Positions 3,665-29,818 of a DNA stretch of 64,000 nucleotides are shown here, piece after piece. Numbering within the stretch: the first letter of the stretch is position 1; each line of letters opens with the position of its first letter. Made by a program: the position numbers and the translations under genes. This stretch comes from Nitrospira sp. CG24E. Lineage in GTDB: Bacteria; Nitrospirota; Nitrospiria; Nitrospirales; Nitrospiraceae. The stretch covers positions 1 through 64,000 of the forward strand of contig NEWP02000002.1 of assembly GCA_002869895.2 (NCBI GenBank), written 5' to 3'. Under the pieces are notes generated by a model. The model was not told the origin of the DNA, ran no database searches, and saw nothing but the letters and a program-made list of their open reading frames with translations.

Positions 3665-3675
3665 CCGAGGACGAC

Positions 3676-5967
3676 ATGCCATCTCTTATCTGGTATTCCC
3701 TGCCCGCCAGACTTCTATGTTCGCCCCCTTCCACTTCCCGCCAGTTACCTTCCGTGAGTAAGGCTGAAACCATTATCCTCCGTCTCATCATCGGTATTGC
3801 CTTCATCTGCAGCTGGAATATCGGATACGCATGGGCCGACAGTCTTGAATCGGCGTTGATGCCGGGCCAAGTCATCCAGGGGCATGCGAAATGGGAAGAG
3901 GACTGCACAAAATGCCACAAACGGTTCGACAAAGCGGCTCAAACCAAGCTCTGCCAAGATTGCCACAAAGATGTCAGGGAAGACATCGAGCGCAAGCAGA
4001 GATTTCATGGTCGGTTGACGGAGCGACGGGATTGTAAAGACTGCCACACAGACCACAAAGGGCGAGGGGAGAATATCGTCCTGCTCAACGAGTCGACCTT
4101 TGAGCACGCACACACGAATTTTGCACTCAAGGGTACTCACGCCGACCCCAAGAAAGCCGAATGCAAAGCCTGTCACAAACCCAAGACCAAGTATCGGGAT
4201 GCCCCGTCGGATTGCCTGGCCTGCCACAAGAAGGACGACTACCACAAAGGCCTATTCAGCCCCAAGTGCGAGACCTGTCACAGCGAAACCGACTGGAAAA
4301 CATCTCCGTTCAATCACGACAAGGACACGAAGTATCCGCTGCTCGGCAAGCATCGAACGACGAAGTGCGAGAACTGCCACAAGGTTCCGGTGGCGAAGGA
4401 AAAAACACCGACAGCTTGCTATGCGTGTCATAAGAAAGACGACAAGCACGGAGGAGCGTTAGGTCGCGCGTGTGAATCCTGCCATACGGAAAAAGACTGG
4501 AAAGATACTCCCTCGTTCGACCATGATAAGACCAAGTTCCCACTCCGAGGCAAGCATATCGACACGAAATGCAAAGACTGCCATCCCGATCAACACTATA
4601 AACAGACACCGGTCGATTGTTACTCATGCCACAAAAAGAAGGACGACTCGCACAAAGGCCGATTTGGAGAGCGCTGTGAATCCTGTCATACCGACCGTCG
4701 CTGGAAAGAAATCGTCTTCGATCACGACCGCCAAACCAAGTACCTGCTACGAGACAAACACAGAGGCCCCGCGTGCGAGAGCTGCCATAAAGGCCATCTC
4801 TACAAAGACAAGACGTTGACAGCCTGTTACGCCTGCCACCGAAGGGAAGACATCCATCACGGGGTATTTGGCGAAAGTTGTGACGCCTGCCACAACGAGA
4901 AGAGCTGGAAACTCTCCTCGTTCAACCATGACCGAGATACCAAATACATTCTGTTCGGCAGGCACGCGGAGGTGAAGTGCGAGGATTGTCACAGGGCGCC
5001 GTCAACAAAAGGCACGACCCCGACAACCTGCGTTGCCTGTCACAAAAAAGACGATTCGCACAAGGGGCAATATGGGGAGCAGTGTGAGTCGTGTCACATC
5101 GCCAAGAACTGGAAACATAGTACGTTCAATCATGATCGCGACACGAAATACATCTTACGCGACAAACATCAATCGGTACAATGCCAGAGTTGTCACAAGG
5201 GCCACTTGTATAAGGATAAGACACCGGAAAGTTGCCAGTCCTGTCACGGCAAAGACGATGTTCACAAGGGCCAGTTCGGGGATCGCTGCGAGGAATGTCA
5301 CACGGAACAGAAATGGAAATCCGTCCTATTCGATCATGATCGTCTCACAAAATTTCCATTGCGCGGGAGACATGCCATGGTCGCCTGCGAGAGTTGCCAT
5401 ACCAGCCATCTCTACAAAAACAAAGTGAAGACCGACTGCTACGCCTGCCACAAGAAAGATGACAAGCACAAAGGACAGGAGGGCTCCAAATGCGAAACCT
5501 GCCATTCGGAAAAACAGTGGCGAGAGGTCGTATTCGATCATGAGACGTCTGCATTCCCCCTGCGCGGCGCCCACGACATCACTCCCTGCCGGAAGTGCCA
5601 CCAAACGCTCACCTTTAAGGACGCGCCATCGGCCTGCATCGCTTGTCACGAGAAAGAGGATATCCACAAGAGGCGATTGGGCACGGAATGTCAGACCTGC
5701 CACAATGCCAGAGACTGGAAGCTATGGGAGTTCGATCACAATACTACGACTGCCTTCAAGCTGGATGGCGCTCACCAGAAACTCGATTGTTCCAGTTGCC
5801 ACAGGAAACCGATGGGCAAGATCGTCGTGACGGCGAACAGCTGCGTGGCTTGCCATAGGAAGGACGATAAGCACGAAGGAGGATTCGGGCCGCAATGCAA
5901 TCGCTGTCACGTGACCGTCCTGTGGAAGACGCTCAAAACCGGTAGCGGGGCTTTTCGGGGCCGGTAA
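3676..5967 (+). CDS. Thirty-haem cytochrome c (tri-haem repeat protein)
   Basis: About 763 residues with 30 CXXCH haem-binding motifs by my count. From about residue 200 the protein is built of ~70-residue units carrying three motifs each, with a repeated pattern CxxCHKKDDxHxG...CExCHxxxxW...FxHDxxTKxxLRGKH...CxxCHxxHLYK. Extra histidines (FNHD, GKH) could be distal haem ligands. The start is not certain: ATG 3676 follows a GAGGAC site, while GTG 3754 gives a cleaner signal peptide (IILRLIIGIAFICSWNIGYAWA). A frame open from 3637 overlaps the DUF5666 gene. Periplasmic or extracellular electron transfer is expected. It is the third gene of the DUF6502-DUF5666 unit. Confidence 0.9.
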   Translation: MPSLIWYSLPARLLCSPPSTSRQLPSVSKAETIILRLIIGIAFICSWNIGYAWADSLESALMPGQVIQGHAKWEEDCTKCHKRFDKAAQTKLCQDCHKDVREDIERKQRFHGRLTERRDCKDCHTDHKGRGENIVLLNESTFEHAHTNFALKGTHADPKKAECKACHKPKTKYRDAPSDCLACHKKDDYHKGLFSPKCETCHSETDWKTSPFNHDKDTKYPLLGKHRTTKCENCHKVPVAKEKTPTACYACHKKDDKHGGALGRACESCHTEKDWKDTPSFDHDKTKFPLRGKHIDTKCKDCHPDQHYKQTPVDCYSCHKKKDDSHKGRFGERCESCHTDRRWKEIVFDHDRQTKYLLRDKHRGPACESCHKGHLYKDKTLTACYACHRREDIHHGVFGESCDACHNEKSWKLSSFNHDRDTKYILFGRHAEVKCEDCHRAPSTKGTTPTTCVACHKKDDSHKGQYGEQCESCHIAKNWKHSTFNHDRDTKYILRDKHQSVQCQSCHKGHLYKDKTPESCQSCHGKDDVHKGQFGDRCEECHTEQKWKSVLFDHDRLTKFPLRGRHAMVACESCHTSHLYKNKVKTDCYACHKKDDKHKGQEGSKCETCHSEKQWREVVFDHETSAFPLRGAHDITPCRKCHQTLTFKDAPSACIACHEKEDIHKRRLGTECQTCHNARDWKLWEFDHNTTTAFKLDGAHQKLDCSSCHRKPMGKIVVTANSCVACHRKDDKHEGGFGPQCNRCHVTVLWKTLKTGSGAFRGR

Positions 5968-6017
5968 CCAAGCGCTGCATGAAACCTATGCGCAGCCGAT
6001 CGTTGACGCAATCGGTA

Positions 6018-7310
6018 TTATTGTGCTCCGGCGATCACACGAAGCACGCGATGATTCCCCGCATCTGCCACCACGATATTGCCGAGTGCATCCTGAGTTA
6101 GTCCGGCAGGATTATTGAGTTCAGCGGATAACGCCCTGGTTCCATTCCCTGACGACCCGCGCGTCCCGACTCCCACCACCGTCGTAATCATGCCCGACAG
6201 ATGGTCGACTTGACGAATGCGATTGTTAAACGTATCGGCGATGAGAATATTGCCCTTCGCATCGACGGCTACGCCAGAAGGCTCCATCAGCTCGGCCTTG
6301 CTCGCCAATGCTCCGTCGCCTCCAAAACCCTGCTCACCAGTCCCTGCAATCGTCGCGATCCTTCCTGTGCGGATATCCAGCCTCCGGACTCGATTATTAA
6401 AGGTGTCGGCGATCAACACCCGGCCCTCGCCGTCTGCTGCGACCGCCGTCGGACCATTCAGTTGCGCCCCCGTTCCGGCACCACCATCCCCCGAGAAGCC
6501 CGGCGTGCCGGTGCCGGCCAGCGTGGAAATCAAGCTGGTGGCCTTTTCGACCAGCCGGATTCTATGGTTTCCCGTGTCGGCAATAAGGATGTTCCCGGCT
6601 GGGTCGACGGAGATCCCGGTCGGCTCTGACAGCTGGGTGCGAATCGCCAACCCGTCATCACCGTTCGATCCCTGGATGCCAGACCCGACAAGGGTGCTGA
6701 TGATTCCAGTCCGGTGGTCCACTATTCTAAGGCGGTGATTAAAGGTATCGGCGATGAGGATGTTCCCCCTGGAGTCGAGTGCGACGCCCCCAGGACTATT
6801 GAGTTTAGCCTCCGTCGCCAGATCTCCATCACCGGAAAATCCCTGGTATCCCACTCCTGCGACCGTGGTGATCATACCAGTCCTAGCATCTACGCGCCTG
6901 ATCCGATTGTTGAAGGAGTCAGCAACAAACACATTCCCCTCGACATCCACGGCCACCGCGGCAACGAACCAGAGGTGGGCTCTGGTGGCGAGAGCCCCAT
7001 CACCCGCGAAACCGAGGTCGCCCGTGCCTGCCACTGTGAAGATACTGGCAGTGGAAACACCGGCTGAAAAGCCTTCATCGGCAGCTTTGTTATTCAGGCT
7101 GGCGACATCCAATGATACCGGTGTCGCAGCTAACTCTGCCGCACCAGGGAGAACAAAGGCCGTTGGGCTTGGAGCCAAGGTAAGGTCCTGCGCAACCACC
7201 CCGAGAGGGAAACCGATGACAACCAGCAACACAACGCTTATCGACAGTATCGTCTCAACCGCCACACTTTGCAGACTTACGAACGCATCGCACGGCATTC
7301 CGATCTTCAT
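6018..7310 (-). CDS. NHL-repeat beta-propeller protein, exported
   Basis: A 430-residue protein. The start at 7310 is supported by GGGGAGGGGAG just upstream; the longer frame to 7376 lacks this. The N-terminus is a signal peptide or membrane anchor (ILSISVVLLVVIGFPLGVVAQ). From about residue 85 there are six units of ~57 residues with the pattern GxxGFxGDG...LxxPxGVAVDxxGNILIADTxNNRIRxVD, enough for a six-bladed propeller. Such proteins usually bind ligands or partner proteins at the surface or in the periplasm; no catalytic motif can be seen. It is convergent with the cytochrome operon. Confidence 0.85.
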   Translation of the reverse strand: MKIGMPCDAFVSLQSVAVETILSISVVLLVVIGFPLGVVAQDLTLAPSPTAFVLPGAAELAATPVSLDVASLNNKAADEGFSAGVSTASIFTVAGTGDLGFAGDGALATRAHLWFVAAVAVDVEGNVFVADSFNNRIRRVDARTGMITTVAGVGYQGFSGDGDLATEAKLNSPGGVALDSRGNILIADTFNHRLRIVDHRTGIISTLVGSGIQGSNGDDGLAIRTQLSEPTGISVDPAGNILIADTGNHRIRLVEKATSLISTLAGTGTPGFSGDGGAGTGAQLNGPTAVAADGEGRVLIADTFNNRVRRLDIRTGRIATIAGTGEQGFGGDGALASKAELMEPSGVAVDAKGNILIADTFNNRIRQVDHLSGMITTVVGVGTRGSSGNGTRALSAELNNPAGLTQDALGNIVVADAGNHRVLRVIAGAQ

Positions 7311-7725
7311 AACTACTCCCCTCCCCTGCAATAATCGAATCGTTCGACGGGATACACAGTGGGATACATTTCCCAATCATGTTCGGTCTTATTATGAGGC
7401 GTTATGGGGGGAAATCTACCCCAACATTCTGGTGGATTGAGCCCATACTTTTGGAGGGGATAGCGTGGCCACGCGTCGTGGATGGGCATGGAACTGCATC
7501 TTGATACTGCACCGTGGTTTCGTAAAAATGCTCGACAAGGGGCGGGAGTTCCCTACCCTCACAGGAAACTCCGCCGTGAAATGCTGGCCGCAATTGCATT
7601 GGAGGCTTCCATCTCGTGCCGCTTGCCTCTCCGCGTATTTCATCGAAAGGCTATCTCGTTGTTTGCAGGACAAATGGAGAGTGATCCTCCAGGCCAGCAT
7701 CATTCACAACGGTTCGTCGGCCCCT
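7311..7725. other. Intergenic region upstream of the NHL gene
   Basis: This 415-base stretch holds no gene I can support; the open frames on both strands lack ribosome sites and family resemblance. It probably contains the NHL gene promoter. A G-run/C-run pair (GGGGGG...ACCCC near 7406-7422) loosely resembles the motif described upstream of the large surface-protein genes, but is in the other orientation. Confidence 0.4.
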
Positions 7726-8187: not shown

Positions 8188-9735
8188 TCACGGTTGATGT
8201 GTGTCCTCACAGATCTGGCCTCTCTCGTCCCCGGCACTCCCTACCCCGATCCCAGTCAAAACCGCGCGATAGGCCGCCAGTGTATCGATCATGCCGCCCC
8301 CTGATTGCAATGATGTTCCGTCTAGCCCCACTAAAACCGCCGAGGCCTTCAGGGCCGATTCCAACACTGGAAGCGTGGCGGAGGGCGCCGCGCTCATGAG
8401 CAACGCCACCGCTCCCGTGACATGCGGCGCCGCGAACGACGTCCCCGCGACCGTCGCGTAGAGCGGCATCCCCCCAAACGACAAGTCCGCAGCCAGCACC
8501 TCTTCTCCCGGCGCCACAAGAACCGGGAACAACCCTCCGTCACAGGCGGAAGGACCACGGCTGCTGAACGTCGAGACCATGAAACGGCTGTCCACTGAAC
8601 CGATGGACATTTCCCCAGGATTATTGGCTGGGCTGACACTGGTGGAGACGGCGGGCCCAGAATTTCCAGCGGACATGATCACAGCGATTCCGGAAACCCT
8701 CAGCAGATCCAACTCGCTCTGAAAGACCCTGTTGCAGACGTTCACCGTCGCGACAGCCCATGAAAGATTCACCACATCCGGCGCATCGTCCGTCGAAACA
8801 TCCCCGTCGGGATCCAGCACCCACTGCAGGCTCTGATGCATGACGCTTTCACGCGAGAATCCGGCGTCGTTGAACATCTTGACCGCTACCCACTGAGCGT
8901 CCGGCGCCATCCCGATCGCAGTCCCGCCGACGGCGCGGCCGACGGCCAGACTCATCGCATGCGTCCCGTGGCCGTCCGTATCGGCCGGCGTCGGATGTTC
9001 GCCGTGCGGGTCGTACCAGCTATTTGCGCCGCCGCGATACTGCGCTGCGAGATCAGGATGGTCTCCGTCCACACCCGTATCCAACCCGGCCACCACCACT
9101 CCCGCGCCTTTGAATCCCAACGTCCAGAGATCCGGTCCCTTCACCGCGGTCAGATTCCATTCCGCGGTCGCGGGATACGAAACCGCTGTCGCCTGCGTGA
9201 CATTCTCTCGACTCATCGGCTCCGCGACAGAATGCCCGCGATTCGGATTGAGCTGTGGATTCCGCAACGGAGAAGAGCCGTTCCGCAAGGGCTGCACCCT
9301 GCGCCCCCTTCGATGGTCGGCAAAAACCCGCACCACCGCATCGCGTCGAATCGACTCGACGCCGGGCAGCGATGCGATATCACGAAGCAGCGCCGGCTCG
9401 CCTGAGAAAGCAAGCGCATGGCCGGCCCACAATGACCTGATCTGGTTCGCGCCTCGCTCCTCCGCAAAGCGCCGAACCTGCGCGGGGAATCCATCTGCCT
9501 CTCGTTTCAGCGCATGCAACAATTGAAAGCGGCGCCGCCGCCTATCGGCATCGAGAAAGGCCTGGGGATCGATTCTGTTCTGAAACGTCACGATCACGGG
9601 AATCTCCACACCGGCGCCCGCGGAATAGAGGGTTGCTTCCAATCCTGGTTCGAGGACAGCGGCCTGCGCCGAGACGCCCGGCAAGGACAACAACAGGCAC
9701 GCCAGCAATCCCATTGCGCGCCATATCAACGCCAC
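8188..9735 (-). CDS. Secreted subtilisin-like S8 serine protease
   Basis: A 515-residue protease. GTG 9735 is chosen as start because GGAG lies seven bases upstream within the end of the previous gene; TTG 9750 is less likely. A signal peptide (MGLLACLLLSLPGVSAQA) is followed by an I9-type propeptide (about residues 40-140). The catalytic domain shows Asp in VAGLDTGVDGDHPDL (about 219), His in DTDGHGTHAMS (about 256), Asn in SAGNSG (about 358) and Ser in AGTSFAAPHVTGA (about 433), so the triad is complete. No C-terminal sorting domain is seen. It is last in the run of secreted-protein genes and may process those proteins; that role is inference. Confidence 0.9.
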   Translation of the reverse strand: MALIWRAMGLLACLLLSLPGVSAQAAVLEPGLEATLYSAGAGVEIPVIVTFQNRIDPQAFLDADRRRRRFQLLHALKREADGFPAQVRRFAEERGANQIRSLWAGHALAFSGEPALLRDIASLPGVESIRRDAVVRVFADHRRGRRVQPLRNGSSPLRNPQLNPNRGHSVAEPMSRENVTQATAVSYPATAEWNLTAVKGPDLWTLGFKGAGVVVAGLDTGVDGDHPDLAAQYRGGANSWYDPHGEHPTPADTDGHGTHAMSLAVGRAVGGTAIGMAPDAQWVAVKMFNDAGFSRESVMHQSLQWVLDPDGDVSTDDAPDVVNLSWAVATVNVCNRVFQSELDLLRVSGIAVIMSAGNSGPAVSTSVSPANNPGEMSIGSVDSRFMVSTFSSRGPSACDGGLFPVLVAPGEEVLAADLSFGGMPLYATVAGTSFAAPHVTGAVALLMSAAPSATLPVLESALKASAVLVGLDGTSLQSGGGMIDTLAAYRAVLTGIGVGSAGDERGQICEDTHQP

Positions 9736-9739
9736 GGCA

Positions 9740-10276
9740 TTACTCCACAATGAGGTTGTCCAACGCGAGATCGCCGAATTGAATGGAAACCTTGCTGCCG
9801 GACTTCACAACCCCGCTCCGATTGGCGAATAAGACAGAATAGGTCCGGTCGGGAAATAAATGGCTCCTCGTCTGCTTCAAGGCCCCCACTTTGTCCATGA
9901 CCGGCACCGGCATCTCGGCCTTGGTGGCCTGATCGATGAGGGCCAGTCCCATCTTGGGGCGGATCAACCGGCCGGCCTTGGCGGTGTCCATCACGCGATA
10001 GCGGAAATCGAGCATATGACCGGCGGCCGTCATCCGAACGCCCAGAATGCTGACGCCATATTGTTGTTCGATGGCTACCCGCTGCTCCTCGGTGATGGAA
10101 CGCGTTGTGAAGGGGGCGGTCATCTGGTGCGCATGTTGAGCCGGGGTCGGCGTTTCCATTGCCAAGCCTACAGGGGTCGGCTCCGCCAGAGCCGGTCCTG
10201 TCACGACCAGTCCCCAGACCATCGTCATTGCCAGACCAAGTCCGATCGGATTCCCTCTCTGCTCCATGTGCGCCAT
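9740..10276 (-). CDS. Exported protein of unknown function
   Basis: A 178-residue protein. ATG 10276 is preferred over the frame start at 10372 because GGAGGGG lies just upstream. A signal peptide is present (GLGLAMTMVWGLVVTGPALA). The mature part has a helical segment SITEEQRVAIEQQYGVSILG, then beta strands (MLDFRYRVMD, RTYSVLFANRSGVVKSGSKV, IQFGDLALDNLIVE) that could form an immunoglobulin or cupredoxin-like sandwich. No metal-binding motif is evident. It sits between the 803-residue cupredoxin protein and the protease, and the protease start overlaps its end region, so the three are probably co-translated. Confidence 0.75.
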   Translation of the reverse strand: MAHMEQRGNPIGLGLAMTMVWGLVVTGPALAEPTPVGLAMETPTPAQHAHQMTAPFTTRSITEEQRVAIEQQYGVSILGVRMTAAGHMLDFRYRVMDTAKAGRLIRPKMGLALIDQATKAEMPVPVMDKVGALKQTRSHLFPDRTYSVLFANRSGVVKSGSKVSIQFGDLALDNLIVE

Positions 10277-10414
10277 GACCCCTCCGAGATAAGATTGATC
10301 GACCACCCTCAACCGCGAACCGATAGACCTCACGCCACCGTGATATCCGCAGCCTGCGACGGGGAGTGCCACAGGCTGCGGAACTCGGGCGAAGGCGGGA
10401 ATCCCCTCGTTCCT

Positions 10415-12826
10415 TTACGGTACCGGCACTTCAATGACTTGTGCGCCGATAGAAGACAGAGCGCTGATCTGCTGTCCGGACAAGAGAGACCCGGACGCTG
10501 TTCTGAATGTCCAGGCGCCGTTGCCTCCGACCGTGACGGACGTCTGACCCGTCGTCGTCGTCAGTGGGATTCCCGTCGTCGTGTTAGTGACCCCCACCTG
10601 GGCATTCGGCTTCGTGCTCCTTCCACGAATGATCCAATCGAGGTTCGCGGCTCGTGTGATGCTCGACACGGTCAGGTCCTTAATCAACGTCACGTTGACG
10701 ATGGCGCTGTTCAGCGATCCATCGTTCGCGCGATATTTGAAGACCCGTGTGCCGACATAGCTCGCGGTCGTCGTGTAAGTGAAAGACCCATCCGGATTCA
10801 GGACCACTGTGCCTGCCGGATTGGAGGTCTGGATAGCCGTGAGCGGATTCCCGTCCACGTCGCTGTCATTCGCCAGCACGCCTGGCGCCGGAACCACGAA
10901 CGAAATCTGTTTGTTCACCACATAGACATTCGCCACCGCCACTGGTGCATCGTTCACCCCCGTAATGGTCATGGCGACCGTGCCGATCGCCGTGCCTGCG
11001 GTCGGCGTTTGCCCATCGCTCACTGTGTAGGTGAACGAATCCGTGCCGCTGTAGTTGGCGTTCGGCTTATAGGTCACAGTAGTCCCGTTGTTCGTGACTG
11101 TGCCGTTGGCGCCCTGCGTCACTGCCGTAATCGTGAGGGTCTGTGGAGGAATATCCGTATCTGTGTCGTTCGCCAGTACGGAGATATTTACCGTGCCCTC
11201 TTCCGCCACGGTGGCGCTGTCCGGATTCGCCGTCGGTGCGGTATTCTCGACGACGGTCACGGTCACAGTTGCCGTGGCCGTTCCGGGCGTCGGAGCCTGG
11301 CCGTCGCTGATGGTGTAGGTGAAGGTATCGGTTCCCGTGAAGCCCGTGTTCGGTGTATAGGTCACGGTCGCTCCATTGATTGCGGCTGCACCGTTGGTTC
11401 CTTGCGTCACTGCGGTGATTGTGAGCGGTTGATTGTCCGGATCGCTGTCGTTCGTCAACACATTCACGGGCACCGCCGCATTGGGCTGCGTGGACGCTGT
11501 ATCGTTCACGGCGACCGGTAGACGATTCACCAAGATGGTTACCGTCGCAACATTACTGTCCGCGCCGTTGTTCGCTTTATAGGTAAAGGCCGCCTGGCCG
11601 AAGAAGGCCGGGGCAGGAATGTAGGTAAAGGACCCGTCTGGATTGAGCGACAAGGTGCCGCTCGCGGGACCTGTCACGAGAACCGCTGTTGCGGTCAGGG
11701 CATTTTGATCGTTAGCCAAGACGCCCGGGACCGCCACATTCAATGGGGTATTCACCGGAGTCGAATAGGCATCGCTGACCGCAACGGGCGCGGCCGTAGT
11801 TCCACCGATCTCCAACTTTGCCAACATGCCCTGCCGGTTCCGTCGGTCGTATATCGAATAGATACCGTTCGCCGCGGGCACCCAGATGGCATCCATCGTC
11901 TTGCCGGCCGGCAGCAACGTCTCATACTGGTCGCGACCATGCACCAACGCGTTTCCATCCTCGGCAATCGCCTGGAAATGCCCGCCCAGCAGAGTCGCCA
12001 CATGCGACTCCAGTCCGGCGTTGAGCAACCGCAACAACACCCGCTGGCCCGCTTGGCCTGCCGGAATTGGAGTGGTCGTGGTCGAATAGGGCGCGCCGTT
12101 GACGAGAAAGTACTTCGGCTGGTAGTTGATCGTGCTGGTCCGGTTACCCGGAGTCCCATAGGTTCCGTTCGCCACGTCCGTGTGCAGCGCCGGGTCGATC
12201 TCGCTGAAGAGCAGCGTCGCTTCGCTGGCGTAGGGTTGTGCCACGGGAACGGCATAGGCCTGCCCTAAGGCTGCATCGGCCTTGACGCTGCCATAGAGTC
12301 CCATCTGCACCTGCACTTGCGCATGCGTCCCGCTGTGATAGAGATAGGTGCCCGGCTTGAGAGTGGACCAGACGTAATCGCCGACTTGGCCTTGAAGGGT
12401 TTCATGGGTGAAGGACCGCATCCGGACTCGGTCAGGCTGGCCGGCGCCGTGCGGACTCGGTTCCGGCGGAAACATGACGGGCGCCATCCCATTTTCTCTC
12501 TGGCCGGGAATCACGATCGACGTCATGTTCGGCACAGTGAGCCCGGCAGGCAAACTGTTCCTCAAATGAATCGTGAGGCCGCTCGCATCTCCGGCCGGCA
12601 CAACGAGCTGTGGCCCTGGGACAGAGGCAGGGCCGCAGACCCAATTGATGTCGCACGACGCGTAGCCCCACAGCGGCACCGACAAGGGAATGCCTGCCGA
12701 ATATTCAATCCCCACCAGCGGTCTCGCGTCGAGCCAGACCTCCGCTGACCATGCCGGCATGACCCCGAGAGTCAACCCGGCAACGGCTAATGAACAAGCT
12801 CTCACAAGATGTTGTAGCGTACGCAT
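10415..12826 (-). CDS. Cupredoxin/multicopper oxidase-like protein with tandem Ig-like repeats
   Basis: An 803-residue exported protein; ATG 12826 has AGGAG eight bases upstream. After the signal peptide (ending PAWSA), residues ~30-350 have the fold signature of a multicopper oxidase (GPQLVVPAGD, GTYLYHSGTHAQVQVQMGLY, RVLLRLLNAG) but lack the HxHG, HPxHxHG and HCHxxxH copper motifs. Residues ~350-700 are cadherin-like Ig repeats with the VLANDxD...GTxxLNPDGSFTYxP pattern (about four). A last domain (~100 residues, WIIRGRST...WTFRTASGSLLSG) resembles the C-terminus of the 2048-residue protein encoded upstream. It is probably a structural or binding protein of the cell surface rather than an active oxidase. 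Confidence 0.85.
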   Translation of the reverse strand: MRTLQHLVRACSLAVAGLTLGVMPAWSAEVWLDARPLVGIEYSAGIPLSVPLWGYASCDINWVCGPASVPGPQLVVPAGDASGLTIHLRNSLPAGLTVPNMTSIVIPGQRENGMAPVMFPPEPSPHGAGQPDRVRMRSFTHETLQGQVGDYVWSTLKPGTYLYHSGTHAQVQVQMGLYGSVKADAALGQAYAVPVAQPYASEATLLFSEIDPALHTDVANGTYGTPGNRTSTINYQPKYFLVNGAPYSTTTTPIPAGQAGQRVLLRLLNAGLESHVATLLGGHFQAIAEDGNALVHGRDQYETLLPAGKTMDAIWVPAANGIYSIYDRRNRQGMLAKLEIGGTTAAPVAVSDAYSTPVNTPLNVAVPGVLANDQNALTATAVLVTGPASGTLSLNPDGSFTYIPAPAFFGQAAFTYKANNGADSNVATVTILVNRLPVAVNDTASTQPNAAVPVNVLTNDSDPDNQPLTITAVTQGTNGAAAINGATVTYTPNTGFTGTDTFTYTISDGQAPTPGTATATVTVTVVENTAPTANPDSATVAEEGTVNISVLANDTDTDIPPQTLTITAVTQGANGTVTNNGTTVTYKPNANYSGTDSFTYTVSDGQTPTAGTAIGTVAMTITGVNDAPVAVANVYVVNKQISFVVPAPGVLANDSDVDGNPLTAIQTSNPAGTVVLNPDGSFTYTTTASYVGTRVFKYRANDGSLNSAIVNVTLIKDLTVSSITRAANLDWIIRGRSTKPNAQVGVTNTTTGIPLTTTTGQTSVTVGGNGAWTFRTASGSLLSGQQISALSSIGAQVIEVPVP

Positions 12827-13140
12827 CGTCATGACTCCTGCGTTGTAATGTGAATAACGGCCATCCCTGTTGCTTTCTCATCTCCTTTACCGTTCATCAT
12901 CGTCCACTCCGAGCAGTGCCCGTTTCCCTTCCCACCCTGGCGAAAATACAAGGTAGTGCGGCGCCCCTTTCCGCACAGCCCGCGAGCCCACTCGTCCGCC
13001 TGAGATCTCCTGCCGGCCTCCGGTGAGGCCCCATGAAACCCCTCGATGTTTGTGCCGACTCGTTCGCGCCATCCTCAGCGACCGGCGCCAACTCATCAAG
13101 GGCCACAACCAATCCATGATCGACCTCCCGCATGCTGCCG
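12827..13140. other. Gap between two multicopper oxidase-like genes
   Basis: This 314-base gap interrupts an otherwise tight run of minus-strand genes. Open frames exist, including a 78-codon frame at 12897-13133, but they have no ribosome site or recognisable family. It may hold a secondary promoter or the remains of a gene. Confidence 0.35.
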
Positions 13141-14466
13141 TTACGGAATCGTCACGCTCGGATGCTCGATCATCATCATCGTCATCATGCCGCCTGGGAA
13201 CACGTCGTCGTTCACCATTTCCATTTCCGTGTGTGAGTGCCACATGAACGTGAACGCGCCGGTCGGGTTATTGCCGCCCTGCCCAGGAGGCAACGGCGCC
13301 AGCTGGCCGATGAACGGACTGCCGCTCCAATTGCCGCCGAAGGTCAGACTCTGGAGTTCCGGCATCGTCGTCGGCAACAGTTTCCCGTGATCGGGGCAAT
13401 ATTCATGGGTTATAGAGTCAAAGCCCGTCGGATTGTTACAGGTGTGGGCCGTGGCGGTCTGATTGGGATCTCCGTAAATGTCCCAGCCCAGCTTTTCTCC
13501 GGTCCAGGTGAAGATCGCATCGACTGTTCCTCCGGGCACGACTGTGATGGTGAAGTTGGACTCGGCCAGATCGGCGCCGGCGCCCGGCGCGCTCTGGAGC
13601 AGCCGTCCGTCGCGCGCGATGGTCCAGGCATTATTGCCGTGGTGATGGAAGGGATGGAGATCCCGTCCCGCCCCGATGAGTCGCAGCAAGGCCCGCTCGC
13701 CTGGATGGACTTGCGGCATGCTGTTATAGGGCTGGTACGCCAGCCACGGGGCTGCGTTGCCCGAACCCAGCATCGTATCCGGCGCGTTGCGGCCGTTGAT
13801 GAACCACAGCGTCGGGTGATAGGCGTTGAAATCCACCTGGTTCACCAGGCCGAACTCGACGAGCCGATGGATGGTGACATCCATTTCCGTGAGAAGGAAC
13901 AGGTACTCCCGCTCGAAGGCGCTGCTGGGATGTTCGTAGGCTTGGTGCTGGGGATCGGCGGCGTTCGGCCGCACGATCAAGGCGCCGACCAAACCCATCT
14001 CGACTTCCAGATCCTGTTGTGTCCCGCTGTGATAGAGATAGGTGCCCGGCTGCGAAGCCGTGAACTGATAGGTCACGGCACAATTCGTCGCGCAGGGCGC
14101 CGGCGGGGCCTCTCGAGTCAAGGTCCCGGTGGCTCCTCCCGTGGCGATCACGTTCACCTGCCCTGGGAACACGATGGAGACGGGAACAGCCAGCTCGTTC
14201 GTGAGGGTAACGGTCACCGTCTGTCCCTGATTCACAATCATGGTCGGCCCAGGGTACTGCATCAATCCACCTCCGTTCGCATATCCCCAACCCAGCAGGC
14301 TTTGGCCGTCGCCGGTGGAAATGATCCCGGCCTTGGCCACCAGGGTGAAATTCCCCCCGCTGATGCCGTCGACGGTCGCGAACGCCCGGTCCGGATGCAG
14401 GTTCGGCAGGACCGCCAATGCGGTGAAGAACGCCAAGATCCCTCGTATCATCGTTGCCATATTCAT
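13141..14466 (-). CDS. Multicopper oxidase-like protein with intact C-terminal His motifs only
   Basis: A 441-residue exported protein; ATG 14466 follows GGAG at seven bases. The signal peptide ends near FATV. The first cupredoxin domain keeps the fold (GPTMIVNQGQTVTVTLTNEL, GTYLYHSGTQQDLEVEMGLV) but has VSIVFPGQ where HxHG is expected. The last domain has LHPFHHHGNNAWTI, matching HPxHLHGH, and MWHSHTEMEMVNDD...GGMM, which corresponds to HCHxxxHxxxGM with Ser in place of the type 1 Cys. The trinuclear half-site of the last domain is thus present while the type 1 and first-domain ligands are missing. See the neighbouring gene, which has the opposite pattern. Confidence 0.85.
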   Translation of the reverse strand: MNMATMIRGILAFFTALAVLPNLHPDRAFATVDGISGGNFTLVAKAGIISTGDGQSLLGWGYANGGGLMQYPGPTMIVNQGQTVTVTLTNELAVPVSIVFPGQVNVIATGGATGTLTREAPPAPCATNCAVTYQFTASQPGTYLYHSGTQQDLEVEMGLVGALIVRPNAADPQHQAYEHPSSAFEREYLFLLTEMDVTIHRLVEFGLVNQVDFNAYHPTLWFINGRNAPDTMLGSGNAAPWLAYQPYNSMPQVHPGERALLRLIGAGRDLHPFHHHGNNAWTIARDGRLLQSAPGAGADLAESNFTITVVPGGTVDAIFTWTGEKLGWDIYGDPNQTATAHTCNNPTGFDSITHEYCPDHGKLLPTTMPELQSLTFGGNWSGSPFIGQLAPLPPGQGGNNPTGAFTFMWHSHTEMEMVNDDVFPGGMMTMMMIEHPSVTIP

Positions 14467-14514
14467 CGTCGTGCTCCTTCGTGTATCCGGTTCGTCAAGC
14501 CTGATGTGCAGGCA

Positions 14515-15732
14515 TCATAATATGCGGATCTCGGTCATCATCCCGCCGAAGTCTTCTGTGTTGTTGCTGAGATAATTCAAGTTCGTCGTATAGAGCATAT
14601 AGGTGCCAGGCGCGACGCCGGTCGTGTCGATAATGACATCCACCGCTTCGCCTCCGCCCAGCGTCACGGAATTCGTGTCGTAGTAGGCCGGGAATCCGCT
14701 CGGTCCCAGTCCCTTTAAGATATGCGCGCCCGTTCCCACGACTTTCATGGTCAGTCCCATCGCTGAGAGGGTGTAGAATCTCGTAACGTTGAGGTTGCTG
14801 ATCCGGAGTAAAATCTTTTGCCCAGCCTGCGCTTGAACCAGCGAGGATATGGGGTTGGACGACGTGTTTGCGCTTAGATAGCCTGCGTCGCTTTTCTCAA
14901 CCGGCGCCGGCAGGGGAGCGGGATTCACCGTATCCGGGTAGCCTCGGCCGTTCAGCATCGCATACGTATCCTTCATGTTCGCAAATGGCAGCACCTGGAC
15001 TGTGTTGCTGGCGTCGTGAAACACCGGGTCCATCGAACCGATTTGCAGCGGAAATTCCACATCGTAGCGCGTCGATCCATCGCCGTCGTTGTAGACATAC
15101 TTGTTTCCGGCCTGATGCCAGGGAATGGAAGGACCGGGCGGAAGATCATTCTGCTTCGGCGTCACATAGAGGTTACCAAGCATGCCCATCTGCATATGTT
15201 CTGTCGCTTCGACGTGGCAGTGATAGATGAAGGTGCCGACTTCAACCGGCTCATAGTAGTAGGTCAGGCTCGAACTCGGGTTGATACTGATGCTGCCGTC
15301 CGGTTCGCCGTCGTAGACAGTTCCCGCATTGGGGAATCCGTGCCAATGCACGCTATGAGGGTCGAACAGGTCTGGCCGATTGACGGTTCCCGCGTTGGAG
15401 AGAGTCACGTAGACCTTGTCGCCCTCCTTAAAGGACAATGTCGGCGCAGCAAACTGGGCCGCGAGGGTGCCCCAGCTCAGGGACTCCGCGATCGGCCTCC
15501 CGGTCAGATCCGAAAATCCGAAGATGTACAGGCCAGCGCGGCCATCGGCCATGCGCATGAATCCATCGCTGCCCGACAGGTGTTTGCATACGATGCCGGG
15601 CGTGTCGCTGACGCCGTCACCGGTGGTATCGCCCGGACATTGCACGTTCACGACCGCCTCGGCATTGAGGCCGGAAAGCCCGAGCCCGGCGGTTATCAGC
15701 AGCGTCAGTAAATACCGTCTTGCGAATGACAT
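14515..15732 (-). CDS. Multicopper oxidase-like protein with intact N-terminal copper motifs only
   Basis: A 405-residue exported protein. ATG 15732 is the start: AAGGAGGAG lies six bases upstream and would be inside the coding region if ATG 15750 were used. The signal peptide ends near LNAEA. The first cupredoxin domain has DPHSVHWHGFP (HxHG motif) and FIYHCHVEATEHMQMGML, giving Cys, His and Met ligands as in type 1 copper sites and two-domain oxidases or nitrite reductases. The second half keeps the fold (KILLRISNLNVTRFYTLSAM, GTYMLYTTNLNYL) but has no His cluster. Together with the 441-residue neighbour it provides a full set of motifs. Confidence 0.85.
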   Translation of the reverse strand: MSFARRYLLTLLITAGLGLSGLNAEAVVNVQCPGDTTGDGVSDTPGIVCKHLSGSDGFMRMADGRAGLYIFGFSDLTGRPIAESLSWGTLAAQFAAPTLSFKEGDKVYVTLSNAGTVNRPDLFDPHSVHWHGFPNAGTVYDGEPDGSISINPSSSLTYYYEPVEVGTFIYHCHVEATEHMQMGMLGNLYVTPKQNDLPPGPSIPWHQAGNKYVYNDGDGSTRYDVEFPLQIGSMDPVFHDASNTVQVLPFANMKDTYAMLNGRGYPDTVNPAPLPAPVEKSDAGYLSANTSSNPISSLVQAQAGQKILLRISNLNVTRFYTLSAMGLTMKVVGTGAHILKGLGPSGFPAYYDTNSVTLGGGEAVDVIIDTTGVAPGTYMLYTTNLNYLSNNTEDFGGMMTEIRIL

Positions 15733-15794
15733 GTGTGTCTCCTCCTTCATGTTTCCCGGTCCCGCGACAAGTCGCGAGACCGGAGCTATCTCAG

Positions 15795-18700
15795 TTAGTT
15801 CGGCTGAATCGTAATCGGCACGTTATTGAGGACCACTCCCGTCGCAGACAAGATTCGGATGGTGTCCCCCGCAACCGCTTGGACAACTCCCGGCTGAACC
15901 TTCGTGAATGTCCAGTTTCCGCTCCCCTCGACGGTCGCGTTGCCGATGAGGGCGTTCCCTGTCGTCCGTCTGATCGTCAGATTGCCGCAGACATTGGGAG
16001 TCCCGGTGCAATTGCTGACTGTCACTGTGCTCGTGCCGCTGATAGTCCACGAGTCATTGATGGTCCCGGCTAGGTTATGGAACACCGCAGAAGTCACCGT
16101 GATCGTTTCAGGCTTCGGCGATACCGCGATCGTGAAGGTCTGGTTCGTGAACCGCCCCATCGCATCCGTCGCCCGGACCGTTACGTTATTGCTGTATGAC
16201 ACCAGCGGGTTCGAGGCATTCGGATTCGGGATCGCCGGCGTCCACGAGATCACACCGGTACCGGAGTCAATCGTCATGACGCCCCTGGTCGCCGGTGGGA
16301 CCTGCGTGAGGCTGTAGGTCAACGACCCGGTTGCAAGCGTCGTCGCATCCACATCGTAGGTATACAGGTCGCCGATGGTTGCGGTCGTCACTGCTGTTGA
16401 GGTGAACTGAGGCGGTCCGACGACCGTAAAGGAAATCGTCAGAGGAATGCGGGCAATTCCCGTACCGTTGGGTCCGCTGTACGGCGTTGCCGTCAAGGTA
16501 TGTGCGCCGGGATTCAATGCAACCCCGAGGTAATCTCCACCGTTGTTGCCCGGCATCGTATAGGGATTCGTGTTGTCGCTCCGCGTGAGACTGGTCGCAC
16601 CACTCAACGTCAGGACTATGCTCTGGAAGGGTGCTGGTGACGGTATAGTGACGGCTTCGATATTGACCGGACAGTTATTGCCGCACAGAACGAGGCGATC
16701 GACGATAGCCCCGTTGGTTAATGAATCGACAATCACCTGGTCGTTCCCAGCGTTGCGTAAGGTGAATTTGACGACCGCCGAAGGGGGCGGAGACGCGAGG
16801 GTCGACCTTTCATCCGCGCCGATATCGGTGCGGGCGATCCCGTCGGCTGGGTCGTTCCCGTCCGTTGGCCTCGGCTGCCCGTCATAATCGAAGGCAAGGA
16901 ACGGGAAGGAGAGCACCGGTCCGTCGTTCCCGGCATCGATGGCCGGCGAGCCGGCCGACAGATGGTAGCTGCCGCCAGGCGTCAGCGGGCCGTAGTGCAC
17001 ATCGATGAAGTTGCCGCCCTCATCGAGAGCCGCAGCGGTCGCCAGCGTCGTCGTAGATTCGAGTTGCAGAATCGTGCCGTCCGGCTGCACGGTGCCGAAT
17101 CCGGGCGGCGCGTTGAAGTAGGGATTGGCAAAGACGCTCGTCGAATCGACCACGAGCTGATTCGAGGGATCGTAGCCGGCGGCGCCGTCGGTCAGGATGC
17201 CGTTCATCGGATGCAACAGAAATCCGGACCCTTCCGGCAAGACTTTCAAATCGTGCACGCCGGCAATCTTGACCTGGCCGACTGGTGGGTTCACCTGGGT
17301 ATTCACTTCCCAGAACATCGAGCGGTTGTTCAGCACAATGTTGTTTTCCATCGCAGGATCGGTGTACCGAGGGCAACCGGCCGCCTGCCCGAACGCCTGG
17401 CAAAGCCCGGCGCTGTGGCGGCTGGACACGATGCCGGCCGGCTGTGGATTCGACACGTTCGGCACACCGGCTGAGAAGGCCAGGCCCGCCGTCGCCGTGC
17501 TGTCGTTGTGCGCCACGGTATTATTGATCATCTTGACCATGGCGACGTCCTGCATGGCAATGCCACCTCCTGCCAACCCTGCCACGTTGTTCACGATGAT
17601 GTTGTTGAATAATTCGACGTGGTACCAGGTCGAACTATTCAACGGCGAGGCCAACACATCCAGGCCGTTGATGGTCTGGAGCAGCAGACCTCCTCCGTCG
17701 CCGGTGCCTGCGTTGTTGCCCTGGATGAGGTTCGAAACGATCGCCACGGACCCAGCTCCTGCACTGATCTGGTTCGGATTGCCGACGACCGGTTGCACAC
17801 CCGCCACTAACAGACCACCGCCCGCGCCGGATCCGCCTAAACCGCCGACCGCCTGCACAAAGGTCTGATTGAAGACAATCTTGTTCCATCCGATCAGGCC
17901 GTCTCGGCTGAGTCCGTAATGAGCGACACCGCCGCCGTCTTCTGTCGCAAAGTTGCCGCAGATATAGTTGTCCGTCAGCCAGTAATTGTCGCTGCCGGTA
18001 TAGAGGGCGACCCCGGCGCCCGGCGAGAACTGGCTGCCGTTCTGCACGATATGGTTATGGTGGATGAAGGCGTGATCGTTCTGGGCGCTGGCCGTAATCG
18101 TGGGATCGCCCAGCCGAATACCGCCTCCATAGGTGCCTTGATTGTTGGTGACTTGGTTGTTGCTGATCTCGAGGTACCGGGCGTACCCGTTCACCACGAT
18201 ACCGGGAGAGGTCGCCGATCCGGCGACCGAAAATCCATCGATGCGGCCAGTCCGGACGTTGTTAAAGGCACGGGGTCCATTAATCCTTGCAGCCACGAAA
18301 ATACCCGCCCCTTCATCAACCTTGAACAAGCCAGTGCCGGGGACGAAACCGCATGTGCCGGTTCCTCCAAGTCCCACCGGAGTATTATTGAGCTGGCCTG
18401 GGAGCAGCGTAATCTGGCCGCCTCCCTGCGCTGGCGGACAATTCACCAGGACATTCATCTTCTCGCGCCACGTCTGCAGTTGCGTGGTCTGAGACTGGCT
18501 GGCGATGATGTGCGTCGAGGCGGCGCCGAAGCCTTGCAGCTTGACCGGTTTGGTCATGATGAGCATTTCGTAGTAGGTGCCGGGCTGGACGAGGATCAGA
18601 TCGTTCGCCACCGCCGCATCCAGAGCCGCTTGGATCGATTGGCCCGGGGCGACTGTTCGGACATTGGGAATGCCGGCGTTACCGACCGTGACCACCACCG

Positions 18701-21700
18701 AGTTGGCGGTCGAGAAACCACTGTCGGCCCGCTTGACGATCAACTCGCCGGTCGGCGCGCCGACCGGCACATCGCCGGTAATCACGCTGTTCGACCAGGT
18801 CACGTTCTGCAACGGAACCCCAGGAATCCCACCGATCGTGACCACCCCTTCGGTCGTGCCGAACCCGAAGTCCCGCGTCACGACGGCGCCGAGGTTGCCC
18901 TCGGTTCTGATCGCGTTGGGATCCGGCACCTGCACCGATCCCACCGACGTGATCGTCAACTGGCGGCTGCCGACGTCGGCGATGAAGGGACCGCCGCCGA
19001 CTCCATTGCCGGCCGCAGTGACGGAGAAGATCTTGGGCGTCTTATCCGCGCATTCGCAGTCGGTCTGCACATTGCCCGGTCCGACGAAGGCGGCGACCGG
19101 AAGGATCGGTGTATCCGCATAGAGCGTCTTTCCTACCTCCATATGCAGAGTCCAACAAACCTGGCCGTACTGCTTGTTATAGAAAGGATCGATCACCGAC
19201 TGCCCCGTTGCCGCATCTGTGATCGGTCCGGGTGAATTGAGACAGATCTGCATCATATGAGGCGCGACACCGCTGGGCGTCGGCGCATTGATGGTGTAGG
19301 TGGAGGGTACCATCGCATTGTAGCTGCCGAACTGGTCGGTATAGACCCGCACGATTTCCCGTCCCGTCCAATCGCGGAACGAGACCGGCAGCCAGGACGG
19401 CGCCGCTTTTTCGCTGAAATTCGGCGAGAGCGGATTGAACTCGTTGGCCAGGTCGTTCAGGATGAAGCCCTTGACCTGCGCCGCCACCGGCACGTCGGTG
19501 TACATGAAGAAATTGACTCCAGGGTTTGCTCCGCTCGTCAGGGCAATGGCCTTTCGGTCGCAGAGCGGAGTGTCCGCGCCGGCATTGGGCGCTGCAACGC
19601 CTGGAAACAACGTGAGTTGTGGCGGCACTCGGTGCAGCTCGCCGACGCAGGCCGGCGGAAGTGCCAAGGGGCTGACGACCGGAGCATCGCCGAAATCGAC
19701 ATTCTTCGATTCTTCGGTCTGATGCTCGTAACCTTTCGGGGTCACGGCTTCGACAATGTACTTCCCTGCCACCAGCGGCGTTGCCGCTCCCGTGGGTAAC
19801 CAGCCGCCCGGGATATACGTCGTGAAGGCATAGCCTCCGTCGAACACCGCTGGACGTACCTGGTTAAAATTCCGAAGACCGTCGTAGCATTTGCCGTTCT
19901 GATAAAACGGATCGAGAGGATTGCCTGGACAGTCGGTCGGGAGGCTGTCGTCCCAACTGTCGGTCGATGCGATCTGCACGGCATCGCCGGCATTGAATGT
20001 GAAGGCGGGGTCGTTCGTCCCTGCAGTGCCCCCAATGTCATTGCGCTTCACATCCTCCGGTCCCATCGTTCCGCTGCCGTCTCTCCAGCCGAATGGATAG
20101 TGATCTACATCGGCCAGTTCGATGGTCCCACTGCCGTTGACGTCGTCGATGATGTTGTCGCCAAGCTGATCCCGATAGAGGAACAGGGGGACACGGGGAA
20201 TGCCCGGCTCCCACGTTTCGGCTCCTGCGTAGGCGGGATCGTTCTCGGCTCGTGTCGTCGCATACTGGACGATGCCGGAGATCCCTCCATTCTCGCCGGG
20301 CGCGTAATTCTTCTTCCCCCACTCGAACTTGTTCGTTGTGCCGAGGAAGGATTGAAACCCTTCAAGCAAGACCGGCCCGGTTTCCGTCCTCGTCGACGCG
20401 CCATCCGCTTGAATTTGCGGCGTCAGCTTTTCGCCCGGCGCGACCGGCCCGCCCGCATCGACGGTGACCGTGACGCCTGTGGCCTTAAAGCGCGCAAAAT
20501 CGACTTCCGCCACTTGCCAGCTGAAGAACGGGAAGATTTCGTCGAAAGGGACAAACCCGTCCACATCGGTTGGAAAAGATTGATAGATGGAGCCATCGCG
20601 AAAACGGAGATTCACGGCCTGATCTCGAATGCCGACCTCTCCCGAATCTCTGACTCCGTTTTCGTTGTCATCGAAGAATACGTAATGGTCCTGCGCCCCG
20701 AACCAACGGAACACGCCGACGTCGCCGAGATCCTGCCCCGCGCCGGTTACCGTGACCGGCACCAGGGCAAAAATGTTATCGAGGAATTGATCCCAGACGG
20801 CGAGTTGATAGGTGCCAGGCGGCACGTTGGGAACGGTGAAGGTGCTGTCCGCGTTGCATGCCGCAACATAGAGGCCTCTGCCGGCGCGTCCCAGGAGGAG
20901 TTCGTTCAAACCCACCCAGCATCCAGGCAGCGGGTGCCCCTTGTGCATGGTGTAGTCGGGAGGACGGGACATGTGCATGTTGACGATTCGGCCGGAAAGG
21001 CTCCCGCCGCCGACAAGGGCATTAAAGGGTTGCACGTAGCCGAATTCCGCATGGTGCCCCGCCGGGCCCAACTCGAAACTGTAGCGGGGCTCTTTGGCCT
21101 TGACCCAGGCGTCGATCGTTTTTGTCCCCTCGATGGTGGACGTCTGTTGCCAATTCGCTCCCACCAACGGGCTGATCGTCACACCATATTTCCCCGGCGG
21201 TAAATTCTTGATCACGGCCTCGCCGGCTCTGAGGTTGTAAGGATTGAGGCCCGCGTTGATTTCCGCCTGAGTGATCGTCGTGATAACGCCGCTACCGAGC
21301 AGGTAGACCGATCCGTCTGGGTTATAGAATGTTCCCAGCGGATTGCCGAACGCATCGGTGAGCACCGGTCCGCCCGCGTCCGCTATGAGGACGTTGAAGC
21401 CACCCAGGCCGCGCTCGCCTTGATCGAGCGCGTTATTGATGGGGGCCTTATCCTCGAACGCCATGACGAAAATCTGAGCGGTCGGAATCCGCTGCGAAGG
21501 GACGACGACGGTGGCATTCGTTTGGCCCGCCGCGATCGAGACACCGCTGATCGAATAACAGAGATCCGGCGTCGACGGTGTCGCGCAATGCGGCAATACG
21601 GAGATGAAATAGCGCTTCGTTGGATCTGGGATAGCGACGGTGGCCGCGCCTCCCGATGCGATCTCCCCCTTGTCGACCACCGGCATATAACTGCGATGGA

Positions 21701-21941
21701 AGTTGTAGGACAGACTATTGGGATTGGGAATTCCCGGCGCGACGAGAAAGGTCTGATCTTCTTGCAGCAACCAACGGAACCCCGTGCTGATCGAACTCCC
21801 GGCGCCGTCGTTTACCGTGAGGGAAACTGCCGGCGGCGTCTGCGCCGACAGACTCGCCGGCCCTCCGATGGTGAACATGAACGCGGCCACGACTCCCAAA
21901 TGCGTCGCGACTCTGCCAAACATCCGTCTCATCCCTTCCAT
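15795..21941 (-). CDS. Giant surface protein: SdrD-like, TIG, beta-helix and Ig-like domains
   Basis: A 2048-residue exported protein; ATG 21941 follows GAGGAGGAATTGTC. The signal peptide ends near SLSAQ. Residues ~30-900 are repeated SdrD B/carboxypeptidase-regulatory-like modules (ALDQGERGLGGFNVLI, FFDDNENGVRDSGEVGIRDQ, GTYQLAVWDQFLDN). A TIG/IPT-like module (about 1000-1100) is followed by a right-handed parallel beta-helix (about 1100-1650, beginning VAPGQSIQAALDAAVANDLI, with NNTVAHNDS-type turns and ending AIDAGNDG...DIGADE). After this come cadherin-like modules and a final domain shared with the 803-residue cupredoxin protein. It is first in the run of secreted-protein genes. Adhesion or a scaffold for the oxidase-like proteins is a reasonable guess. 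Confidence 0.85.
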   Translation of the reverse strand: MEGMRRMFGRVATHLGVVAAFMFTIGGPASLSAQTPPAVSLTVNDGAGSSISTGFRWLLQEDQTFLVAPGIPNPNSLSYNFHRSYMPVVDKGEIASGGAATVAIPDPTKRYFISVLPHCATPSTPDLCYSISGVSIAAGQTNATVVVPSQRIPTAQIFVMAFEDKAPINNALDQGERGLGGFNVLIADAGGPVLTDAFGNPLGTFYNPDGSVYLLGSGVITTITQAEINAGLNPYNLRAGEAVIKNLPPGKYGVTISPLVGANWQQTSTIEGTKTIDAWVKAKEPRYSFELGPAGHHAEFGYVQPFNALVGGGSLSGRIVNMHMSRPPDYTMHKGHPLPGCWVGLNELLLGRAGRGLYVAACNADSTFTVPNVPPGTYQLAVWDQFLDNIFALVPVTVTGAGQDLGDVGVFRWFGAQDHYVFFDDNENGVRDSGEVGIRDQAVNLRFRDGSIYQSFPTDVDGFVPFDEIFPFFSWQVAEVDFARFKATGVTVTVDAGGPVAPGEKLTPQIQADGASTRTETGPVLLEGFQSFLGTTNKFEWGKKNYAPGENGGISGIVQYATTRAENDPAYAGAETWEPGIPRVPLFLYRDQLGDNIIDDVNGSGTIELADVDHYPFGWRDGSGTMGPEDVKRNDIGGTAGTNDPAFTFNAGDAVQIASTDSWDDSLPTDCPGNPLDPFYQNGKCYDGLRNFNQVRPAVFDGGYAFTTYIPGGWLPTGAATPLVAGKYIVEAVTPKGYEHQTEESKNVDFGDAPVVSPLALPPACVGELHRVPPQLTLFPGVAAPNAGADTPLCDRKAIALTSGANPGVNFFMYTDVPVAAQVKGFILNDLANEFNPLSPNFSEKAAPSWLPVSFRDWTGREIVRVYTDQFGSYNAMVPSTYTINAPTPSGVAPHMMQICLNSPGPITDAATGQSVIDPFYNKQYGQVCWTLHMEVGKTLYADTPILPVAAFVGPGNVQTDCECADKTPKIFSVTAAGNGVGGGPFIADVGSRQLTITSVGSVQVPDPNAIRTEGNLGAVVTRDFGFGTTEGVVTIGGIPGVPLQNVTWSNSVITGDVPVGAPTGELIVKRADSGFSTANSVVVTVGNAGIPNVRTVAPGQSIQAALDAAVANDLILVQPGTYYEMLIMTKPVKLQGFGAASTHIIASQSQTTQLQTWREKMNVLVNCPPAQGGGQITLLPGQLNNTPVGLGGTGTCGFVPGTGLFKVDEGAGIFVAARINGPRAFNNVRTGRIDGFSVAGSATSPGIVVNGYARYLEISNNQVTNNQGTYGGGIRLGDPTITASAQNDHAFIHHNHIVQNGSQFSPGAGVALYTGSDNYWLTDNYICGNFATEDGGGVAHYGLSRDGLIGWNKIVFNQTFVQAVGGLGGSGAGGGLLVAGVQPVVGNPNQISAGAGSVAIVSNLIQGNNAGTGDGGGLLLQTINGLDVLASPLNSSTWYHVELFNNIIVNNVAGLAGGGIAMQDVAMVKMINNTVAHNDSTATAGLAFSAGVPNVSNPQPAGIVSSRHSAGLCQAFGQAAGCPRYTDPAMENNIVLNNRSMFWEVNTQVNPPVGQVKIAGVHDLKVLPEGSGFLLHPMNGILTDGAAGYDPSNQLVVDSTSVFANPYFNAPPGFGTVQPDGTILQLESTTTLATAAALDEGGNFIDVHYGPLTPGGSYHLSAGSPAIDAGNDGPVLSFPFLAFDYDGQPRPTDGNDPADGIARTDIGADERSTLASPPPSAVVKFTLRNAGNDQVIVDSLTNGAIVDRLVLCGNNCPVNIEAVTIPSPAPFQSIVLTLSGATSLTRSDNTNPYTMPGNNGGDYLGVALNPGAHTLTATPYSGPNGTGIARIPLTISFTVVGPPQFTSTAVTTATIGDLYTYDVDATTLATGSLTYSLTQVPPATRGVMTIDSGTGVISWTPAIPNPNASNPLVSYSNNVTVRATDAMGRFTNQTFTIAVSPKPETITVTSAVFHNLAGTINDSWTISGTSTVTVSNCTGTPNVCGNLTIRRTTGNALIGNATVEGSGNWTFTKVQPGVVQAVAGDTIRILSATGVVLNNVPITIQPN

Positions 21942-25485: not shown

Positions 25486-25650
25486 GTTGGACTCTCCTGT
25501 TGGTTAGTAATTATGAGGTGCGAAATTTATTTCTGAAGATGATGTGTTCCATCCGATCTATCTACTCATATGCGATTGGCCAAGTGGAATGCGTGCTATG
25601 TGTACACTTGCCGCTCGATAGGATGAAATCCATCTTAGGTGCAGGGAGAC

Positions 25651-25665
25651 CCCCCATAGGAGGGA
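25651..25665 (-). promoter_or_regulatory. CCCTCCT-NN-GGRGG motif upstream of LEPR-XLL paralogue 1
   Basis: Minus strand TCCCTCCTATGGGGG, about 165 bases upstream of ATG 25485. The first seven bases CCCTCCT are identical in all three copies, and spacing to the G-run is the same. Confidence 0.4.
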
Positions 25666-25830
25666 GAGAGGGAAGGGATGGAGGCTGATGCTCTTCTGTG
25701 CTTGCGCAACGCGCGGTCGGAGACTCCCCTCGTTGGACGTGCGCACTAGAAGACCAATCAGCCCCCATCCTTGAAGAGAACACAAGCAGGCTTGAAGGGA
25801 CCAGTTCTATAGTTCGAAGCGCGGAGGACA

Positions 25831-25869: not shown

Positions 25870-25881
25870 ATTCTCTGACCG

Positions 25882-25912: not shown

Positions 25913-25927
25913 ATCGGCACGATCTGC

Positions 25928-29668: not shown

Positions 29669-29694
29669 CCGATCATATCCCCTTCACGGACAGG

Positions 29695-29815: not shown

Positions 29816-29818
29816 CGT

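Follow-up and report, generated by a model that had tools for sequence, protein, structure and literature searches.

Two adjacent genes of Nitrospira sp. CG24E, here termed A and B, probably encode subunits of a single secreted multicopper oxidase, each contributing part of its active site, with a third neighboring product, C, closing the ring. Judging from the distribution of the copper ligands, it is very likely that A and B share a copper center, and a 1:1:1 stoichiometry of A, B, and C is deduced with moderate confidence. To annotation, the cluster looks like a pair of ordinary copper oxidases and a protein without motifs; if this were followed, either oxidase, expressed alone, would be inactive. 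The genes lie within the window (the stretch of 64,000 nucleotides analyzed here, contig NEWP02000002.1), to which all positions refer unless another contig or locus is named.

The genes are arranged in an operon-like manner on the minus strand, in the 5′–3′ order 2048-aa protein, A, B, C, 210-aa protein, and 520-aa subtilase (Table 1). A and B are separate genes, each with its own signal peptide. Because a ribosome-binding site (AAGGAGG) adjoins the ATG at 15732 just upstream, A is best taken as a protein of 405 residues; its residues are numbered as in the 411-aa frame, six higher than in the 405-aa protein. The 2048-aa protein is likely a scaffold or an adhesin to mineral or cell surfaces, and the subtilase is possibly a processing protease. 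Searches of Pfam and NCBIfam assigned no family to the 210-aa protein. Two secreted adhesin-like proteins with YDG and Big_3_5 repeats are encoded upstream on this strand (22972–27982). The region 28337–37065, possibly a dedicated export system, contains genes for an outer-membrane efflux protein, a SecA-like protein, and three HlyD-type proteins, one of them with M50 peptidase and PqqD-like parts and another with a GAF domain. A 776-aa multiheme cytochrome of the c7/c3 type encoded near the operon (3637–5967; MtrC-like match weak) is a possible electron-transfer partner. Further multicopper-oxidase genes are found on other contigs of the same genome (G000:C45:21575-21892, G000:C5:2515-2838, and G000:C51:1132-1473), two of them within very long frames (1656 and 1163 aa); the size of the first is presumably within the range of MofA-like metal oxidases. 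For comparison, about 50 loci were gathered from Nitrospirota, Acidobacteriota, Burkholderiales (including Cupriavidus metallidurans CH34 and Paraburkholderia), and Gammaproteobacteria.

Table 1. Genes of the cluster and copper-ligand motifs of A and B.
Feature	Position	Strand	Description
Secreted repeat protein	15795..21941	-	2048 aa; SdrD_B, fn3_3 polysaccharide-lyase-type (sub-threshold), beta-helix-like, He_PIG
Subunit A	14515..15732	-	405 aa; from ATG at 15750, 411 aa (14515-15750); secreted two-domain cupredoxin
Subunit B	13141..14466	-	441 aa; secreted two-domain cupredoxin
Subunit C	10415..12832	-	805 aa; N-terminal two-domain cupredoxin (about 11798-12727), then Big_9/cadherin-like repeats
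Exported protein	9740..10372	-	210 aa; conserved downstream of C
Subtilase	8188..9750	-	520 aa; conserved at most loci
HSVHWHG of A	15337..15357	-	type 1 His132, trinuclear His135 and His137; column match to complete type C enzymes
HCHVEATEHMQMGM of A	15181..15222	-	trinuclear His177/His179; type 1 Cys178, His185, Met190
HPFHHHG of B	13636..13656	-	His271, trinuclear His274 and His276
HSHTEME of B	13219..13239	-	trinuclear His410/His412; invariant Glu414, Glu416

Both A and B scored above the cut-off of the Pfam multicopper-oxidase models (Cu-oxidase_3, Cu-oxidase_2, and Cu-oxidase along both proteins), and the solved structures nearest to A are the two-domain enzymes 3g5w (1.4e-17) and 2zwn. 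Assignment to the copper nitrite reductases (NirK) was rejected, as TIGR02376 gave 34–41 bits against a cut-off of 296 and A contains HxHG and HCH, which is not the NirK pattern. Two-domain oxidases are trimers whose trinuclear center lies where domain 1 of a monomer adjoins domain 2 of the following one; in those of type C, the type 1 copper resides in the N-terminal domain (PMC13151041). In a column alignment to complete type C enzymes of other Nitrospirota genomes, which the same searches had turned up, A matched eight of eight ligands in domain 1 and none of five in domain 2. The domain 1 ligands, located in PH132-SVH135WH137G and Y-HCHVEATEHMQMGM (H177, C178, H179, H185, and M190), constitute a type 1 copper site (H, C, H, M) plus one half of the trinuclear center (HxH, HxH), and all eight are invariant in 49/49 aligned rows; no ligand motif is present in domain 2. 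The sequence-only reading had recognized HxHG and HCHxxxxxH...M in the first domain of the 405-residue protein and none in its second, which alignment and invariance bear out. Between residues 38 and 57 of A (15580–15639; CPGDTTGDGVSD...C), two nearly invariant cysteines surround a DxTxDGxxD motif resembling a calcium-binding loop.

The other half of the trinuclear center is carried by B, in domain 2. In the same type of alignment, B matched none of eight ligands in domain 1 and five of five in domain 2 (HPxHxHG and HSH), located in H271PFH274HH276G and WH410SH412TE414ME416M; domain 1 contains only LYH146SG. Among the aligned rows, H271, H274, and H276 are invariant in 50/50 and H412, E414, and E416 in 46/46, and every complete B has the domain 2 histidines together with the two glutamates (HSHxExE). 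Thus, HPFHHHG and HSHTEMEM in the last domain of the 441-residue protein had been identified correctly from the letters, but the accompanying claim that Ser replaces the type 1 Cys there was a misreading: complete type C enzymes have Asp at this place and their type 1 copper in domain 1, and since their domain 2 reads HDH, the Ser of B is no lost type 1 Cys. HDH is still present in one B orthologue (L043). The lone histidine of YHS was discarded as a ligand because the position varies (Tyr in 26, His in 14, and Gln in 7 of 50). As A and B each hold exactly one half of the oxygen-reducing site, a mixed complex is very probably needed, and because the trinuclear center of two-domain oxidases forms between neighboring subunits, an A–B pair can complete one site.

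In the proposed enzyme, domain 1 of A would supply the type 1 copper and four trinuclear histidines and domain 2 of B the other four, which would place the trinuclear center at the interface of these two domains. The N-terminal part of C would close the ring, resulting in a heterotrimer with one type 1 and one trinuclear site. Electrons from an extracellular reductant would enter at the type 1 copper of A, and O2 would be reduced at the A–B interface, while the giant repeat protein and the repeats of C would anchor the complex at the surface.

As to the nature of the reductant, previous work on another genus is informative. Three tandem extracellular multicopper-oxidase genes were reported for Sideroxydans lithotrophicus ES-1 (He et al, 2017; PMC5566968), and according to a proteome study from 2025, Slit_1812-1818 were higher on magnetite than on Fe(II)-citrate; Slit_1817 and Slit_1818 have canonical motifs, the large Slit_1816 has none, and similar clusters occur in Paraburkholderia (PMC12016527). 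Slit_1816-1818 resemble the Nitrospira genes in comprising three adjacent extracellular cupredoxin genes, one of them very large, with adhesin/polysaccharide-lyase-like domains and devoid of copper motifs. They differ in that SCO1 and a cytochrome are encoded nearby, whereas neither a mofC-like cytochrome nor an SCO1 chaperone was found directly beside the Nitrospira operon, where the repeat protein is also a separate gene. SCO1 lies near the cluster in several Burkholderiales loci, and that of Paraburkholderia contains A and B followed by a 2723-aa fusion of C with the 2048-type protein; SCO1/SenC and a cytochrome c are encoded nearby. Since A–B–C and these accessory genes occur together there, the Nitrospira cluster is regarded as one of the Slit_1816-1818 type, matched by description. 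The cluster itself is, hence, already known by description; no description of a site split between subunits was found in the two reports (PMC5566968 and PMC12016527).

A role in oxidizing solid metals is plausible, and the cluster is a candidate for solid-iron oxidation, an open problem. That the reductant is a reduced metal (solid-phase Fe(II), perhaps Mn(II)) has close to an even chance of being correct, as deduced from expression in that other genus. It is also possible, if somewhat doubtful, that the substrate of the complex is an organic reductant or Cu(I) instead of solid metal: two-domain oxidases can act as laccases (PMC13151041), and the cluster is present in the metal-resistant C. 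metallidurans. However, the greater abundance on magnetite than on Fe(II)-citrate of a cluster of like description (PMC12016527) and the adhesin-like partners, which suggest action at a surface, speak against this.

The first 330 residues of C matched multicopper-oxidase Pfam models and are followed by Big_9/cadherin-like repeats, but column alignment to complete type C enzymes revealed no conserved copper ligand. C adjoins B in 48/49 loci (the exception, L061, is a contig end), and in L131 and L133, it occurs bare, as a protein of some 350 aa made up of the two domains. It is less conserved than A and B (median identity 37% versus 45–46%). Fusions of the 2048-type protein involve A in L057, L059, L060, L061, and L131, and C in Cupriavidus, Paraburkholderia, and a number of Nitrospirota and Acidobacteriota. 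A and C are thereby linked to a common scaffold, with B located between them in gene order. In a maximum-likelihood tree, A, B, and C each formed one supported clade, with B and C as sisters (95/88), and A grouped with homomeric enzymes. A divergent two-gene version from Nitrospirota (L145, positions 4962–7320 of that locus, genome G075) consists of a 344-aa protein with domain 1 ligands and a 447-aa protein with domain 2 ligands; the third paralogue is absent from its contig. The B-like member branches below B and C, on a long branch. A simple path would lead from a homotrimer via a two-gene split to duplication of B into the ligand-free C. The L145 version, demonstrating that A and B occur without a nearby C, and the long adhesin-like repeats of C are points in favor of a shared site in a complex of other composition (A1B2, A2B1, or some larger ring of A and B), with C as a separate adhesin. 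This arrangement is rather unlikely: the two-domain module of C has been kept in 48 of the 49 loci, sometimes in its bare form, and C is the sister paralogue of B.

The genes for A, B, and C lie side by side at about 48 loci from four lineages. A motif search found each ligand set in 48/48 complete orthologues, the two exceptions being cut off by contig ends, although median pairwise identity among orthologues of A or of B is only 45–46%; as the ligands are invariant across the aligned rows, their conservation is not due to chance. Canonical motifs in the unused parts were found in 0/48 for domain 2 of A, 1/49 for domain 1 of B (a stray HPHG in L057), and 0/48 for C. One could take A for a mere type 1 electron carrier, B for an independent metal-binding or structural protein, and the trinuclear histidines for relics, as A alone has a complete type 1 site and the two proteins are encoded separately, each with its own signal peptide. 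This is improbable, because relics would drift at 45% identity, whereas the trinuclear ligands are invariant in about 48 loci and the unused halves have lost every ligand. That A and B are inactive homotrimers or decoys, left over from a degenerating oxidase operon, would account for the half of the ligands missing in each, but is highly improbable given intact reading frames, a gene order kept across phyla, the invariance of the remaining ligands, and the higher abundance of the apparent counterpart on magnetite.

Both A and B were present in the identical 20 of 396 Nitrospirota genomes (B at E<1e-50, A at E<1e-45). Among 297 Acidobacteriota genomes, 12 contained the B type and 13 the A type; the surplus A sits at the edge of a contig, beyond which B would fall. 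Neither was detected in any of 60 close relatives of the window's genome; the distribution of the cluster is, therefore, patchy, as with horizontal transfer or repeated loss. Homologues standing alone in many genomes, which would have counted against the hetero-oligomer with a shared copper center that the sequence-only reading had proposed, were thus not seen, and ligand split, invariance, and co-occurrence together support it as the best reading. The earlier interpretation was incomplete in that the proteins correspond to type C two-domain oxidases and not to a three-domain laccase, C was missed, and the cluster had already been noticed (PMC5566968; PMC12016527).

For structure prediction, mixed single-protein alignments were abandoned, as MAFFT placed the homologous subunits on top of one another in a single slot; instead, adjacent genes were folded as natural in-frame readings in which only the intergenic stop codons were read as a residue. 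With AlphaFold2, A–B of the window resulted in a weak model (pTM 0.52), and A–B–C of L049 (1183 aa, 19 rows, register checked) in one with pTM 0.75 and mean pLDDT 70.8, which is consistent with a shared center but not decisive. The top Foldseek matches of the A–B–C model were all six-domain proteins (ceruloplasmin, factors V and VIII, and MnxG, 9bxa), over the whole length; 3g5w matched with 301 columns (rmsd 2.6). The A–B–C chain could not be superposed rigidly on ceruloplasmin when sequence order was kept (TM 0.21, rmsd about 34 Å). Because the site of ceruloplasmin joins domain 1 with domain 2 of the preceding unit, the order required here is B, A, C. In a toy ring model, the opposite cyclic order gave 32–38 Å, the same order about 3 Å, and an open string about 50 Å; for pairs, the rmsd was 16–19 Å in the toy ring versus 17–19 Å observed. 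The misfit to ceruloplasmin is, hence, consistent with the opposite cyclic order that contact between A and B would need, although this argument is indirect and falls short of proof.

Of the known systems, type C two-domain oxidases (Nitrosomonas europaea 3g5w; 2zwn) are similar in having the two-cupredoxin fold with the type 1 site in domain 1, and domain 1 of A and domain 2 of B together match every ligand column. As in these enzymes, the type 1 site is confined to domain 1 (H/C/H/M in domain 1 of A, HSH in domain 2 of B). Known members, in contrast, are homotrimers with all ligands in each subunit, whereas here they are split among paralogues, A lacking those of domain 2, B and C those of domain 1, and C having none at all. 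No report of a heterotrimeric multicopper oxidase with a split trinuclear site was found in the open-licence literature. If the proposed assembly is correct, three paralogues that divide the ligands, together with the two-gene form of another genome, would show the loss of unused sites once subunits differ. The most far-reaching version of this proposal, an obligate three-subunit split-site oxidase that is the evolutionary counterpart between homotrimers and six-domain enzymes and acts extracellularly on solid iron or manganese in at least four bacterial lineages, is put forward tentatively. Triplication of two-domain enzymes is the presumed origin of six-domain oxidases (PMC3600357). The latter (ceruloplasmin and the bacterial MnxG, 9bxa) share with the A–B–C complex, as proposed, six cupredoxin domains, a single trinuclear site, and ligand-free domains, but consist of one chain instead of three; at no locus were A, B, and C all found in one chain, and the cyclic order needed, with B preceding A, runs against that of the genes. 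By analogy, the A–B–C heterotrimer would be the unfused counterpart of a ceruloplasmin-like enzyme.
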